From Sphingopyxis macrogoltabida (lineage in GTDB: Bacteria; Pseudomonadota; Alphaproteobacteria; Sphingomonadales; Sphingomonadaceae): 64,000 nt of DNA. The position numbers and the translations under genes were made by a program. Shown piece after piece: positions 11,879 through 61,283 of this stretch; positions within the stretch are counted from its first letter, which is position 1; each line of letters starts with the position of its first letter. The stretch is taken from NCBI RefSeq assembly GCF_001307295.1, contig NZ_CP012700.1:3537001-3601000 (forward strand), written 5' to 3'. The notes beneath the pieces are model-generated. The model was not told where the DNA came from. It saw only the letters and a program-made list of their open reading frames with translations, and did not search any database.

Positions 11879-11927
11879 CGCGCAGCGCTTTCCTATTTTG
11901 CGGGCAGCCCTATATCCTGCCCGATCC

Positions 11928-14096
11928 ATGACCCGCGCCCGCGTCCTCCTTTTGACCGCCGCCCTCGGCCCGCTCGATTATCGCGTGCCTTATGGCAGCG
12001 AAGCGCCGCTCGGCAGCGTCGTCGTCGTGCCGCTGGGGCCGCGGCGGATGGGCGGCGTGGTGTGGGAGGATGAAAGCTTCGGCGCGCCCGAACCCGTCGG
12101 CGACAATCGCCTGCGCAACCTGTTCGAAGTGGTGCCGGTGCCGCCGGTTTCCGCGCCGCTGCGCAAGCTCGTCGAATGGACGAGCGACTATTATCTCGCG
12201 CCGCCGGGGTCGGTGCTGCGCATGGTGCTGCCCGGTGCGGCCTTTGCCGATGCCCGGCGCCCGATCGTCGAATATCGCGCCACCGGCGAACTGCCGGCGC
12301 GGATGACGCCACAACGCACCGTCGCGCTCGAAAAGATCGGCACGCGGCAGGGGATCGTGCGCGAACTCGCGGCGATGGCCGAGGTCAGCGAGGCGGTGAT
12401 CCGCGGGCTCGTCCAGACGGGCGCGCTCGAAGCGGTGAGCGTGTCGGCCGACCAGCCCTATCCGCAGCCCGATCCTGCGTTCGCGCCGCCCGATCTGTCG
12501 GACGAGCAAACCGCCGCCGCGCATCAGCTTCGCGAGGCGGTCGATGCCGCGAAGTTCGAGACGTTGCTGCTCGACGGCGTCACCGGATCGGGCAAGACCG
12601 AAGTCTATATGGAGGCGATCGCCGCCGCGATCGACGCGGGCAAGCAGGCGCTCGTCCTGCTCCCCGAAATCGCACTCACCGAACCGATGCTGACCCGCTT
12701 CGCCGCGCGCTTCGGCTGCGAACCGGTCGCTTGGCATTCGGGCCTCCGCTCGACCGAGCGCCGCCGCGCCTGGCACAGCATCGCGGCGGGCGAGGCGAGG
12801 ATCGTCGTCGGCGCGCGATCGGCCTTGTTTCTGCCCTATGGCAATCTCGGCGTCATCGTCGTCGACGAAGCGCACGAGACGAGCTTCAAGCAGGAGGACG
12901 GCGTCCATTATCACGCGCGCGACGTCGCGGTGATGCGCGGGCATTTCGAGGGACTGCCGGTGGTGCTCGCGAGCGCGACCCCGGCGCTCGAAAGCCTCGC
13001 GCAGGTCGAGGCGGGGCGCTATCGCCATATCGTCCTCCCCGCGCGCTTCGGCGGCGCGGCGATGCCCGACCTTGCCGCGATCGACATGCGGCAGGATCCG
13101 CCCGACCGGGGAAGCTGGCTCGCCCCGCCGCTCGTCGAGGCGCTCGCCGACCGGCTTCACAAGGGCGAGCAGAGCCTGCTGTTTCTCAACCGCCGCGGCT
13201 TCGCGCCGCTGACGCTCTGCCGCACCTGCGGCCACCGTATTCAGTGCCCGAACTGCACCGCGTGGATGGTCGAGCACCGGCTCGTCCACCGCCTTGCCTG
13301 CCATCATTGCGGCCATGTCATGCCGCCGCCGCGGCTCTGCCCCGAGTGCGAGGACGAAGACAGCCTCGTCGCGTGCGGCCCGGGGGTCGAACGCGTCGCC
13401 GACGAGGTCGCCCTGCGCTTTCCCGAAGCGCGCGTCGCGATTGTCACCAGCGACACCTTATGGTCGCCCGCGAAGGCCGCCGAGTTCGTCGACAATGTCG
13501 AGGGCGGCCTCATCGACATCATTATCGGGACGCAGCTCGTCACCAAGGGCTATCATTTCCCCAACCTGACGCTCGTCGGCGTGGTCGATGCCGACCTCGG
13601 GCTCGACGGCGGCGACCTGCGCGCCTCCGAACGCACCTTTCAACAAATCGCGCAGGTCGCAGGACGCGCCGGGCGCGGGGTGAAGCCGGGCGCGGTGCTG
13701 ATCCAGACGCGCGTGCCCGAGGCGCCGGTGATGGCGGCGCTCGTCGCGAACGACCGCGACGGTTTCTATACCGCCGAAGCGGCGGCGCGGAAGTTCGCCG
13801 GGGCGCCGCCCTATGGCCGCTTCGCCGCGCTGGTCATTTCGTCGGAGGATATCGAGGTCGCGCGCGGGCAGGCGCAGCGGCTGGGCCAGAAAGCACCGGT
13901 TGCCGAAGGCCTCGCCGTCTACGGCCCCGCGCCCGCACCACTCGCGATGCTGCGCGGCCGCCACCGCTTCCGCCTGCTCCTCCACGCGCCGCGCAGCTTC
14001 GATCTGCAGGGAACGATCCGCGAGTGGGTGAACAGCGTTGACTGGCCGTCGAAGGCGCGTCTGGCGATCGATATCGATCCTTATAGTTTCGTCTGA
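11928..14096 (+). CDS. priA: Primosomal replication restart helicase PriA
   Basis: About 722 residues. The N-terminal 3'-DNA-binding domain is followed by a superfamily 2 helicase core with Walker A GVTGSGKTEVYM (about residue 217), DEAH box VVDEAHETSFKQ, and motif VLASATPALES. The PriA zinc region with eight cysteines follows (CRTCGHRIQCPNC, CHHCG, CPEC). The motif VAGRAGRGVKPG closes the helicase. PriA reloads the replisome at stalled forks. The ATG at 11928 is chosen because MTRARVLLLTAALGPLDY is the normal N-terminus; the frame is open further upstream without homology. Confidence 0.96.
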   Translation: MTRARVLLLTAALGPLDYRVPYGSEAPLGSVVVVPLGPRRMGGVVWEDESFGAPEPVGDNRLRNLFEVVPVPPVSAPLRKLVEWTSDYYLAPPGSVLRMVLPGAAFADARRPIVEYRATGELPARMTPQRTVALEKIGTRQGIVRELAAMAEVSEAVIRGLVQTGALEAVSVSADQPYPQPDPAFAPPDLSDEQTAAAHQLREAVDAAKFETLLLDGVTGSGKTEVYMEAIAAAIDAGKQALVLLPEIALTEPMLTRFAARFGCEPVAWHSGLRSTERRRAWHSIAAGEARIVVGARSALFLPYGNLGVIVVDEAHETSFKQEDGVHYHARDVAVMRGHFEGLPVVLASATPALESLAQVEAGRYRHIVLPARFGGAAMPDLAAIDMRQDPPDRGSWLAPPLVEALADRLHKGEQSLLFLNRRGFAPLTLCRTCGHRIQCPNCTAWMVEHRLVHRLACHHCGHVMPPPRLCPECEDEDSLVACGPGVERVADEVALRFPEARVAIVTSDTLWSPAKAAEFVDNVEGGLIDIIIGTQLVTKGYHFPNLTLVGVVDADLGLDGGDLRASERTFQQIAQVAGRAGRGVKPGAVLIQTRVPEAPVMAALVANDRDGFYTAEAAARKFAGAPPYGRFAALVISSEDIEVARGQAQRLGQKAPVAEGLAVYGPAPAPLAMLRGRHRFRLLLHAPRSFDLQGTIREWVNSVDWPSKARLAIDIDPYSFV

Positions 14097-14165
14097 CCGT
14101 CTTGCGACGAAGCGATCTGGATTCGCCGGATTTTCCTGTTAATCATCGGCGCATTACCGGGGTCA

Positions 14166-14432
14166 GAGTCTATCCTGGAGAGATTGAGGCGTCGTGACGG
14201 AGCCGATTTTGGCTCAGGGCGAGGAGCGAGGAGGGAGCTATGCGGAAGCATAGTGACCGACGAGCGACGCGGCCCTGGGCCAAAATCGGCCCGCCGCATA
14301 ACGGTTGCCCTGGGAAGCCCGCCGGACTTCGTCGCGGCGCTGGCAGGGGCCACCAGCCCCTGCTGCACGCCGCTTCTTGCCGGCGGGCTTCCCAGGGCAA
14401 TCACGACGCCTCAATCTCTCCAGGATAGACTC
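14166..14432 (+). ncRNA. Candidate structured RNA or palindromic element (three-way junction)
   Basis: No protein gene lies between priA and the next CDS. An outer stem of 32 perfect base pairs (14166-14197 with 14401-14432) encloses two arms. Arm A: 14202-14220 pairs with 14272-14290 (18 of 19, the exception T14214-G14278 being a U-G wobble if read as + strand RNA). It continues through four tandem G-A/A-G mismatches separated by Watson-Crick pairs and ends in a 6-bp hairpin (14238-14243/14248-14253) with a GGAA tetraloop. Arm B: 21 perfect pairs (14305-14325 with 14380-14400), then 6 bp (14334-14339/14368-14373) and 7 bp (14344-14350/14356-14362) around a 5-nt loop. It ends 9 nt before a GGAGG ribosome site, so it could be a leader RNA, an independent ncRNA, or a MITE-like repeat. 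No target-site duplication is seen. Confidence 0.7.
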
Positions 14433-14451
14433 CAAGTGGGTGGAGGTTACC

Positions 14452-16038
14452 GTGAATATTCGCAAGATGGCCCGCGCGATCGGCGCGGGCGTGGCTTTGG
14501 CAGCGCTGACGATCAGCGGCGCGGCGCGCGCCGAATGGTGGGAAGCAGAAACGTCGCACTTCATCGTCTATTCGGAAAGCAAGAAGGAAGACGCCGAACA
14601 GTTCGCGCGCCTGCTCGAGCGTTATGACAATGCGCTGCGCTATTTGCAGGGCCGGCCGGTCCCCGGCCCCGACATGGGCAAGGCGAACAAGGTCAAGGTG
14701 TTCCGCAGCGGCGATACCGACGACATCGCGGCGCTCGCCGGCGCCCCCGAATCGGGCATCTACGGTTTTTACATCCCCCGGGCAGGCAGCACCGTCGCCT
14801 TCGTGCCGGCGCGCAACAAGCGCCGCGACGGCGTCGGCGTGCGCACCCTCAACGAGGTACAGCTCGACACTCAGCGCGTCCTGTTCCACGAATATACGCA
14901 CCATTTCATGCTGACCAATTTCAGCACCGCCTATCCCTATTGGTACACCGAAGGTTTTGCCGAAGTGTACGGCACGATCGAGCTGAGGGACGATGGCAGC
15001 TTCCATCTGGGCAATGTGCCGCAGGCGCGCGGCGAAGCGCTGCGCGTGCTGCCCGATACCCGTCTGTCCCGCATGTTCGACCACAAGGTCAAGCTGAAGG
15101 GAATGGAGCTGATGCAGTCCTATTCGGTCGGCTGGCTGCTCTCGCACTATCTGAACTTCAGTCAGGAACGCAAAGGCCAGCTCCCGGCCTATCTGAGCGC
15201 GCTCAACAAGGGCGAGGACAGCCTCGAGGCCGCGAAGCGCATCTTCGGCGACCTCGACAAGCTGCAGGCCGAATTGCGCAAATACAAGAACGGCCCCTTC
15301 CCCGGCTATGACGTCAAGCCGGCCTCCTACGTCGAACCGGTGGTGACGATGCGCGCCCTGGCACCGGTCGAGGAAAGCCTGATGTCGTCCTATATCCGCT
15401 CGCAGCGCGGCGTCGACCAGAAGCAGGCCAAAGATGTCGCTCGCGACGTCGCGGGGAAAGATGCGGCCAATCCCGACAGCCTGTTCGCGCAGCTTGTCGT
15501 CGCCGAGGCGCAGCTCGATGCGAAGAATTACGACGCCGCCGAGGCCGCGGCGAAACGCGCGATCGCCATCGCGCCCGCTTCGTCGCTCGCCCATTTCATG
15601 ATGGGCGGCGTCTTTATGGCGCGCGGCGAAGCCGACAAGGCGCAATATGCCGCGGCACGGCCGTGGTTCGAGAAGGCGCACCAGCTCGACCTCAAGGACC
15701 CGCGGCCGATGATCGGGCTCTATATGTCCTATTTCGAAGCCGGCGAGGCCATTCCCGAAGCCGCGCTCATCACGCTCGAGGATGCATGGGATTATGCGTC
15801 ATACGATACGGGCTACCGTCTGATCCTCGCGCGGCAATTGCTGAACGAGAACAAGGGCAAGCTCGCCAAGGACGTGCTGTCGCCGATCGCCTATTCGGCG
15901 CACGGATCGGACAAGGAAAACAAGATTCTCGCGACGGTCGAATTTATCGAGCAAGACAAGCTCGGCGACGCGCGCGCAAAAATCGCCGAAATCTTCCAGG
16001 AGCAGAAGGACGAGGCCGCGGGCAAGAAGAAGGGCTGA
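14452..16038 (+). CDS. Secreted HExxH metallopeptidase-like protein with TPR-like C-terminus
   Basis: About 528 residues from a GTG start preceded by GGAGG at 5-base spacing; the open frame upstream runs through the palindromic element and is not coding. A signal peptide (ALAALTISGAARA) is followed by a gluzincin motif HEYTHHF (residues 146-152) with the third ligand Glu167 in YTEGFAEVYG, as in DUF1570-like peptidases. The C-terminal half has helical TPR-like repeats (AEAAAKRAIAIAPASSLAHF). Substrate unknown, periplasmic by inference. A paralogue follows 34 bp downstream. Confidence 0.8.
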   Translation: MNIRKMARAIGAGVALAALTISGAARAEWWEAETSHFIVYSESKKEDAEQFARLLERYDNALRYLQGRPVPGPDMGKANKVKVFRSGDTDDIAALAGAPESGIYGFYIPRAGSTVAFVPARNKRRDGVGVRTLNEVQLDTQRVLFHEYTHHFMLTNFSTAYPYWYTEGFAEVYGTIELRDDGSFHLGNVPQARGEALRVLPDTRLSRMFDHKVKLKGMELMQSYSVGWLLSHYLNFSQERKGQLPAYLSALNKGEDSLEAAKRIFGDLDKLQAELRKYKNGPFPGYDVKPASYVEPVVTMRALAPVEESLMSSYIRSQRGVDQKQAKDVARDVAGKDAANPDSLFAQLVVAEAQLDAKNYDAAEAAAKRAIAIAPASSLAHFMMGGVFMARGEADKAQYAAARPWFEKAHQLDLKDPRPMIGLYMSYFEAGEAIPEAALITLEDAWDYASYDTGYRLILARQLLNENKGKLAKDVLSPIAYSAHGSDKENKILATVEFIEQDKLGDARAKIAEIFQEQKDEAAGKKKG

Positions 16039-60122: not shown

Positions 60123-61283
60123 TCAGCGCCCGTGAAATTCGGCGACCGCGCCCGACACCGCCTGCATCAGCGACATGCGCGCCGGGATCGGCGAGGTCGT
60201 GTTGCCGAGCATGACGACGATGGCATAGCGGGTGCCGTCGGGGGCGGTCGCGATGCCGATGTCGTTATAGCCGGCGGTCATGCCCTTGTAATCCTGCCCC
60301 GTCCCCGTCTTGTGAAGAAATTGCCAGCCGGGCGGCAGTCCGCCCTTGAGCCGCCGCGGGCCGCTCTTGGTCCGGCTCATCACGCCGAGCAGATACTCGG
60401 TCGATTCGGGCGACAGCAAGGTGCCGCGGGCGAGGCGGGTCAGGGCGCTGGCGATGGCCGACGGACTCGCACCGTCGACCGGATTGGCGAGATAATTGTC
60501 CATCGCCGCCTTGCGCGTTGCGTCGGGCAGCGCGGCGCGCGCGGTCTGGAAATTGCGGCCGCGCGAATAGCTTTGCTGCCAGGTCAGGCCCGCAGTGCCG
60601 CTCTGCAGCAGCCGCTCGCCGGGGCCGAAGCGGATCGACCCCAGACCCTTGTTCGCGATGAAACGGCGCACCGCGTCGGGGCCGCCGACGGTGCGCAGCA
60701 GGCTGTCGTTGGCGAGATTGTCGCTGTGCGTGATCGCGGTCTCGATAAGGTCGCGGACGCTCATCGTCACCGACCCTTCGGCGAGGACACGTGCGGCGAG
60801 CGGCTGGTGGAACACCGCGAGGTCGTCGGGGCCGATACGCACCATCTGATCGAGGCGGAGCCGGCCCTGATCGACCGCGTCGAGCACCGCCATCGTTACC
60901 CACAGCTTCGACACGCTCTGCTGCGGGAACAGGTCGCCGCCGCGCTCGGAAAACTCCCATTCGCCGTCGATGCGCTGGATGGCGATGCCGGTCTTGCCGG
61001 GAAAGGCGCGCCACAAGCCGTTGATGCGGTCGGAGAGCCCGGCGGGCGGGCGGCGGAAGCCAGGGTCGAGCGTGCCGCGCGGCGCCGGAAGCTGCGACCG
61101 CACCGGCTGGCCGATCGGCACCGTCACCGACCCGGTCGAACTGCGCACGGGTTGCTGCTGCTGTTGCGGCGGCGCATGCTGCGCGCGCGGTTGCGGGACG
61201 ATCGCGGAGCTGGCGCAGCCCGCGAGCACCGCGGCACTCGTCAGCGCGGCGAGCAGCGGCTTGCCGGTAAACTCGAACTTCAT
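60123..61283 (-). CDS. Class A-type serine hydrolase (beta-lactamase2 fold) lipoprotein
   Basis: 386 residues. A lipobox LAGC (Cys23) is followed by a Gln/Pro-rich linker. The penicilloyl-serine transferase motifs are SVSK (Ser123, Lys126), SDN (187-189) and KTG (LHKTGTGQD). The Glu166-xx-Leu-Asn omega-loop motif of true class A lactamases is not found in its expected place, so deacylation of penicillins may be poor and a PBP-like or esterase role is possible. Confidence 0.88.
   Translation of the reverse strand: MKFEFTGKPLLAALTSAAVLAGCASSAIVPQPRAQHAPPQQQQQPVRSSTGSVTVPIGQPVRSQLPAPRGTLDPGFRRPPAGLSDRINGLWRAFPGKTGIAIQRIDGEWEFSERGGDLFPQQSVSKLWVTMAVLDAVDQGRLRLDQMVRIGPDDLAVFHQPLAARVLAEGSVTMSVRDLIETAITHSDNLANDSLLRTVGGPDAVRRFIANKGLGSIRFGPGERLLQSGTAGLTWQQSYSRGRNFQTARAALPDATRKAAMDNYLANPVDGASPSAIASALTRLARGTLLSPESTEYLLGVMSRTKSGPRRLKGGLPPGWQFLHKTGTGQDYKGMTAGYNDIGIATAPDGTRYAIVVMLGNTTSPIPARMSLMQAVSGAVAEFHGR

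Follow-up and report, generated by a model that had tools for sequence, protein, structure and literature searches.

What is the 267-nt element at positions 14166-14432 of the window, the 64,000-nucleotide stretch of Sphingopyxis macrogoltabida DNA analyzed here, which separates priA from a gene starting at 14452? An earlier note on this DNA had read it as a structured plus-strand RNA, possibly also mobile, and several of its structural details are borne out by the sequence (Table 1). The terminal inverted repeat, which forms the outer stem, is perfect over 32 bp, all eight G-A dinucleotides described in arm A are present, and the lower stem of arm A consists of 19 bp with a single U-G flaw. 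The junction, described as three-way, is four-way because a small hairpin sits between the arms; this mini-hairpin is kept by relatives, with C-G/G-C swaps. Arm B also has G-A-rich internal loops, and these lie on the minus strand. The contention that the minus strand would present C-U clashes thus holds for arm A and fails for arm B. The fold of the window copy is far beyond chance on either strand, with -215.8 kcal/mol (z -19.3) for the plus strand and -201.8 kcal/mol (z -17.0) for the minus strand, and 0 of 200 shuffles as good in each case. Strand preference is almost absent from arm B of this copy (14303-14402; minus -84.7 vs plus -83.8 kcal/mol). A search of the window against 4227 Rfam families brought only two tRNAs to the gathering score and no match to the element; the best match below threshold had 28.9 bits where 168 are required. 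The loci of 13 relatives likewise matched no Rfam family at gathering score. We found no intrinsic-terminator pattern within the window copy and no promoter-like site around it. The frame of the downstream gene is open back into arm B (14305-16038), so that the protein might be longer if it started at a TTG that lies within the element.

Table 1 Coordinates of the element, its parts and the adjacent genes in the window.
Feature	Position	Strand	Evidence or remark
priA, upstream gene	11898..14096	+	PriA_3primeBD and PriA_C above cut-off; stop 69 nt before the element
Putative 2-bp target duplication, left copy (CA)	14164..14165	.	Sequence; statistics over sites
Left terminal inverted repeat (left half of outer stem)	14166..14197	+	Sequence; two-sided variation among relatives
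Arm A, hairpin carrying the G-A ladder, plus strand more stable	14199..14293	+	Folding, relatives
GA step 2, 5' side	14224..14225	+	Opposite 14266-14267; aligned columns 69-70/141-142
GA step 3, 5' side	14228..14229	+	Opposite 14262-14263
GA step 4, 5' side	14231..14232	+	Opposite 14259-14260
GA step beside tip, 5' side	14235..14236	+	Opposite 14255-14256; by eye absent in some subfamilies, uncounted
Mini-hairpin between the arms (fourth junction branch)	14294..14304	+	Folding, relatives
Arm B, hairpin, minus strand more stable in most relatives	14305..14400	-	Folding, relatives
Right terminal inverted repeat (right half of outer stem)	14401..14432	+	Sequence
Putative 2-bp target duplication, right copy (CA)	14433..14434	.	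Sequence; statistics over sites
Downstream gene	14452..16038	+	Weak TPR match below Pfam cut-off; start 19 nt past the element

BLAST searches detected the element in 14 of 60 related genomes. From the 30 BLAST loci we excluded short matches (L012, L013, L014 and L022) and L025, which has no arm A, leaving 25 copies. A covariance model of arm A and the mini-hairpin was trained on 22 of these, copies with altered tips (L011, L021 and L027) being left out. The model matched 56 of 80 genomes in the genus (E<=0.001), 76 of 396 in the order, spread over 21 of 84 genera (E<=1e-6), and 13 of 385 in the class, 11 of the 13 outside the order. The carriers among the 80 matches listed, of at least 120, include Sphingomonas, Novosphingobium, Sphingopyxis, Erythrobacter, Qipengyuania and Hephaestia; the few matches in unrelated phyla look like chance. 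The genome of the window holds 13 matches. Eight of them were opened (three of type I, five of type II), and the terminal repeat is present in every one. Type I comprises the window-like matches of about 78 bits or more, among the matches listed; type II is a second sequence family with the same architecture, at about 48-60 bits in the matches opened. There is one clear copy in the 64-kb window; a weak match at 60391-60497 (17.7 bits, E 0.05) is perhaps due to chance.

At least 120 matched loci were examined for ends; 13 lacked any inverted repeat, and among the remaining 107 the score was insufficient in 25, many of these loci being at contig ends, truncated, or chance matches in unrelated phyla. 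Four loci of the series L095-L124 were too short to try. Altogether 201 of 229 scored copies reached the inverted-repeat score and 195 passed the filters for length and for letters, 145 of type I and 50 of type II. After removal of near-duplicates, 152 copies (112 type I and 40 type II) were aligned by sequence. The core is 264-269 bp long in 142 of 173 copies and contains no transposase gene; each of its two arms measures about 95-100 nt. Five of the eight loci opened outside the order (L354, L356, L358, L359 and L360) have an outer stem around an arm A; in four of them the fold is a four-way junction whose arms measure 96-101 nt, and the best fold of L354 has five branches. The remaining three (L355, L357 and L361) yielded no full element. 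A type II copy matched six sphingomonad plasmid records; neither the window copy nor a type I copy from G061 matched a plasmid, and the window copy matched no phage. One IMG/VR contig contains the conserved arm A pattern (L396, 8417-8436). Reduced forms are also seen: arm B has collapsed to a plain hairpin in L352 (209 nt) and arm A is missing from L025 (175 nt), the long inverted-repeat ends remaining in both, and a solo outer-stem palindrome with the arms deleted (L331, G061:C2:2452907-2452969) lies near a gene that by eye is PII/GlnK-like.

The earlier suggestion that the element might be mobile is supported by empty sites and target duplications. The genome G035, 94% identical in the priA flank, has no element at the window site, and among the 30 loci opened only the window's own has an element within 200 nt past the priA-flank match. 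Since this empty site reads TTTGA at the junction, the duplication at the window site is not exactly proven. We then compared the joined flanks of six of nine copies (2,050 of 3,060 joined-flank bases) with 14 genomes. Relatives spanning the junction were recovered for five of the six copies (1, 10, 1, 9 and 8 loci) and none for L015. The empty sites read CTAG (L002 and L026), TTAG (L023) and CTAA (L008), and at L018 TTAG or another TTA in 9 of 10 loci. The corresponding filled sites are flanked by TA/TA (L018 and L023), TT/TA (L002), AA/TA (L026) and CA/CA (L008). Thus, at three of the five copies the flanks have drifted or differed from TA at the outset. L010 shares its site with L026, and comparison with nine loci gave a matching empty-site picture. 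By their flanks, L010, L026 and L029 represent one insertion in three species, in the tsf-pyrH region (gene names by eye); it sits in the loop of another palindrome, and several element-free relatives retain GCTCTA there.

A YTAR (CTAG-like) target serves as a criterion for IS630-type elements. Of 170 distinct sites, with the register set by the repeat alone, 145 have Y at -3, 148 have R at +3 and 86 are flanked by TA/TA. Where the left dinucleotide is not TA, the right one is identical in 7 of 56 sites vs 1.69 expected (4 of 10000 shuffles), one or two of the seven (L239 and L293) perhaps being misplaced. An alternative count with a bonus to TA and CA agrees (173 sites, TA/TA at 90, non-TA duplications in 9 of 56, of which at least two look misplaced). 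Copies are also lost: at the site of L018, which is a full copy in G035, G000 (L079) keeps 14 bases from the end of the right repeat, apparently a loss by imperfect deletion. The L008 copy (1494-1760) is inserted at a cobalamin-riboswitch leader; RF00174 scores 112.2 bits in an empty relative (L065) and 86.9 bits in the filled locus, where the match begins inside the element. That the element is dispersed, non-autonomous and mobile is well supported.

The ends of the element read TA|GAGC or close variants. We examined 23 IS630-family loci, comprising nine of 12 from the genomes of this study and 14 from plasmids. Ten have no clear repeat; the other 13 have clear terminal repeats, and all 13 carry GAGC beside TA at one end at least. 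Beyond GAGC, the 23 insertion-sequence repeat ends, taken from 12 loci, include two that resemble an element stem more than shuffles do (p<0.02 without correction for multiple tests), with 13 of 16 bases (0 of 300 shuffles) and 12 of 16 bases (4 of 300). The distant copy L356 ends in ATACCAAAGG, and the candidate repeat of an IS630 locus in the window genome (L368) begins ATACCAAGGC, a hint from sequence that the core may travel with different ends. ISY100, of the IS630 family, is described as inserting at TA with duplication of the TA and as having 24-bp inverted repeats (PMC2170065), a length close to that of the near-perfect distal part of the element's outer stem. In G061, which has 34 arm A model matches, we saw no transposase-bearing partner with the same repeat; of its 39 repeat matches, 36 pair up to bound 17 elements and a solo stem, and the other three, which are unpaired, by eye resemble truncated copies or remnants. 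Among the named loci without a nearby second end, none had a distant one that would mark an autonomous version. IS630 genes above cut-off occur in 8 of 17 element-rich genomes (two partial or broken) vs 3 of 13 element-poor genomes, and do not closely track the element. Of the readings considered, putative IS630-type mobilization has the best support.

Two other ideas were considered and rejected, one on the element's movement and one on the origin of its outer stems. Y1 transposase in the host genomes is the criterion for REP/REPIN elements moved by RAYT; Y1_Tnp was found in 5 of the 17 genomes rich in the element and in 2 of the 13 poor in it. Palindromes that occur on their own and might have given rise to the outer stems were sought with two stem types in seven genomes, with matches only at known copies; the window's own stem matched in its genome only its own copy and one close copy.

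Folding energies favor the plus strand for arm A in 111 of the 112 type I copies and in all 40 of type II. For arm B they favor the minus strand in 95 of the 112 (16 opposite, one tie) and again in all 40 of type II, a weaker preference than that of arm A. Four of the five distant copies have an arm A that favors the plus strand, and arm B favors the minus strand in all four in which it was recognized at full length; the second arm of L354 as taken from the fold is a 44-nt piece, better on plus. By these predicted energies, the better hairpin of either strand is the one nearer its 5' end.

Wobble pairs give the same picture in arm A. We counted only pairs predicted on both strands, a set that excludes a junction column with G-U in 107 of 112 copies, since structures from a single strand bias the type I ratio of G-U to A-C in arm A (121:7 with the plus-strand structure, 32:112 with the minus). 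The plus-strand structure favors G-U columns, and thus counts of 121:7 (type I) and 59:6 (type II) overstate arm A; the folding-energy split holds regardless, because energies do not depend on the choice of structure. On the restricted set, type I arm A has 32 G-U and 1 A-C (16 vs 1 clusters, p 0.0003) and arm B has 24 and 63 (6 vs 22 clusters, p 0.004). Type II has 11 and 6 in arm A (4 vs 0 clusters, not significant) and 10 and 28 in arm B (1 vs 6, not significant); over its 8 clusters the two arms differ (Fisher p 0.015) in the same direction as in type I. In type I, arm A tolerates G-U and not A-C, a pattern that suggests selection for its plus-strand hairpin; type II gives weak signs of the same. 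An A.C mismatch at the base of arm A, considered as a minus-strand wobble, turned out to be a bulged A.

Relatives also keep the G-A steps and show many compensatory changes in arm A, as the earlier note had anticipated for a functional RNA. Counted by alignment columns (a regular-expression parse covered 46 of 112 copies), GA/GA is kept at step 3 in 91 and at step 4 in 97 of the 112 type I copies. Step 2 alternates between GA/GA (48 copies) and GC/AA (44); base by base, it is A.G in 60, C.A in 47 and something else in 5, or 30, 18 and 2 with one representative per 80% cluster (Fisher p 2e-11). Both A.G and C.A are able to form a sheared-type pair, so that the alternation would amount to covariation of a non-canonical pair. 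In arm A and the mini-hairpin together, 15 of 36 pairs vary on both sides, a number reached by 0 of 500 shuffles. The GNRA cap fared less well: the GGAA loop is present at 14244-14247, but a GNRA loop occurs in the best fold of only 3 of 112 type I copies, which counts against that part of the functional-RNA argument.

The outer stem has no strand preference. Its distal part is nearly all Watson-Crick while its sequence differs greatly among copies, though the requirement for an inverted repeat inflates the pairing. The few distal wobbles are balanced (G-U 20 and A-C 22 in type I, 3 and 3 in type II), as are those of the proximal part (57 and 40 in type I, 8 and 10 in type II). A proximal excess of G-U seen in 25 copies (20:4) was rejected with more copies, at 57:40 and 16 vs 14 clusters. 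The absence of a G-U excess is conservative, because the score was more lenient toward G-U than toward other mismatches. Copies at the same site were compared in eight pairs, a small sample with matching flanks in which two pairs share the tsf-pyrH site and one (L026/L029) was added by hand. Within these pairs the outer stem underwent 16 two-sided and 3 one-sided changes vs 22 and 26 in the arms and mini-hairpin (Fisher p 0.006). Without the hand-added pair, the seven comparisons give 20:22 for the arms (p 0.011). Nine of the 16 outer-stem changes need a transversion, and those therefore had no G-U intermediate. Mostly two-sided changes together with balanced wobbles point to copying between the repeat arms at the DNA level and not to selection on one RNA, with the reservation that two-sided changes are frequent in the arms as well (22 of 48). 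Template switching has been described as making two-sided changes in one step that restore RNA hairpin stems (PMC8794818). There the maintenance of hairpins was described from RNA genes, and here it would concern transposon terminal repeats at shared sites.

Gene context could be scored for 102 of 106 copies with enough flank (the other four scored too low; only four are of type II). The neighboring genes are convergent at 40, co-directional at 51 and divergent at 11; the co-directional copies lie 29 with and 22 against the direction of the genes, so the element occurs in both orientations. Genes reading toward the element, called from open frames and codon composition and not from annotation, stop a median of 2 nt away and within 10 nt in 84 of 131 cases. 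Since the element supplies a G after TA, a TAG stop that is interrupted at its TA is rebuilt on insertion. A frame entering the element tends to end at this TAG, and the short distances are thereby inflated.

With moderate confidence, we explain the element as an IS630-mobilized MITE that inserts in intergenic DNA and stop codons and carries two inward-read RNA hairpins at gene ends. The outer stem would serve IS630 transposases as a pair of terminal inverted repeats, through which they would mobilize the element in trans. Transcripts of flanking genes would enter from either side and each meet its own good hairpin first; this hairpin may set or protect the 3' end of the mRNA, whether by protection, processing or termination. 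With its own hairpin for each side, insertion at gene ends would be tolerable in either orientation. The outer stem would never have to work as RNA, and template switching during replication could copy one repeat arm from the other at the DNA level. If true, a gene-less transposon is made harmless at gene ends by giving each neighbor its transcript end. Beyond this lies a wider possibility to which we give less credence than to the MITE itself, namely an alphaproteobacterial superfamily in which two opposite-strand RNA devices are combined with freely drifting ends and with different IS630-type transposases. In such a superfamily each device might be read only by transcription entering from its side, a tentative proposal, and the drifting terminal repeats might be kept complementary by DNA copying from arm to arm, which we put forward just as tentatively.

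The strand split need not reflect RNA. The arms could be single-stranded DNA or cruciform hairpins, the transposase or a replication factor recognizing at each end the hairpin of the strand that has its 5' end there, and the split would then reflect the two-fold symmetry of a transposition complex, in which opposite arm preferences are expected of the two ends. The preference is unchanged with energy parameters for DNA (among 112 type I copies, plus for arm A in 110 and minus for arm B in 98), and the balanced orientation to co-directional genes suits this explanation as well. It is nonetheless unlikely in our estimation. IS630/Tc1-mariner elements move as double-stranded DNA, and mini-transposons of ISY100 with about 30 bp per end match the activity of the full element (PMC2170065). 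The near-absence of A-C where G-U is tolerated (32:1 in type I arm A) is typical of RNA, and present-day copies with a lost or collapsed arm exist (L025 and L352).

Alternatively, the arms might have no function, strand-biased mutation producing the G-U/A-C asymmetry (for example C-to-T changes where transcription entering from either side exposes a strand) and template switching keeping the hairpins palindromic. If the neighbors read in, exposure of either strand would fall mostly on its 5'-proximal half, and the arms also show two-sided changes (22 of 48), but we regard this account as improbable. A-C occupies 1 of 1344 cells in type I arm A vs 22 of 2443 in the distal and 40 of 779 in the proximal outer stem; since A-C is rarer in arm A than in the outer stem, it looks removed and not merely un-made. 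Moreover, the G-A steps and A.G/C.A pairing persist across 50 clusters, and an outer stem with two arms persists outside the order. Equally improbable is the earlier note's own proposal of one free-standing structured plus-strand RNA, carried about by transposition: it accounts for the conserved fold and G-A ladder, the A.G/C.A covariation and the excess of G-U over A-C in arm A, but arm B is better on the other strand, the outer stem is strand-neutral, the element lies in both orientations beside genes, no promoter-like site accompanies the window copy, and presence or absence at one site varies among close relatives.

MITEs with IS630-like ends are already known, RUP among them (PMC2229807). 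RUP of Streptococcus pneumoniae and Correia/NEMIS of Neisseria are described there as TA-flanked MITEs, RUP being attributed to IS630-Spn1. In common with both, the element is small and gene-less, with inverted-repeat ends, terminal TA, multiple copies and foldable transcripts, and its ends are IS630-like, as are those of RUP. RUP and Correia/NEMIS are about 107-155 bp long and form stem-loops by pairing of their ends, with no arms in that description (PMC2229807); the element differs in its usual length of 264-269 bp, its four-way junction, its opposite-strand arms and its highly variable outer stems. The alphaproteobacterial IS630 insertion sequences with clear repeats share the YTA|GAGC ends of the element; they are about 1050 bp long, carry a transposase (DDE_3 in both tested) and have mostly imperfect repeats, whereas the element is gene-less. 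We found no earlier description of the element in the open literature, a scope into which most subscription-journal papers do not fall. If our explanation is true, alphaproteobacterial genomes contain a further family of structured repeats that is widespread and still unnamed. Insertion sites shared across species are natural replicates for how long inverted repeats stay perfect. Two-sided changes, often transversions and without G-U intermediates, would reveal a source of compensatory changes other than RNA structure; such changes are usually taken as proof of RNA structure, and arm-to-arm DNA copying would be an alternative origin.

The nearest alphaproteobacterial kind known to us is the CIR repeat of Caulobacter and Brucella, which PMC2229807 describes as about 110 bp long, with two arms, a linker and terminal TA. 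CIR and the element are both intergenic repeats of alphaproteobacteria with two arms and TA at the termini. CIR has a conserved GANTC in an arm loop and, in that description, no pairing of its ends, while the element has a long outer stem and 267 bp. Identity with CIR fails on size and on GANTC, which is present in 32 of 112 type I copies vs 67.9 expected from shuffles and in 5 of 40 type II copies vs 24.4.
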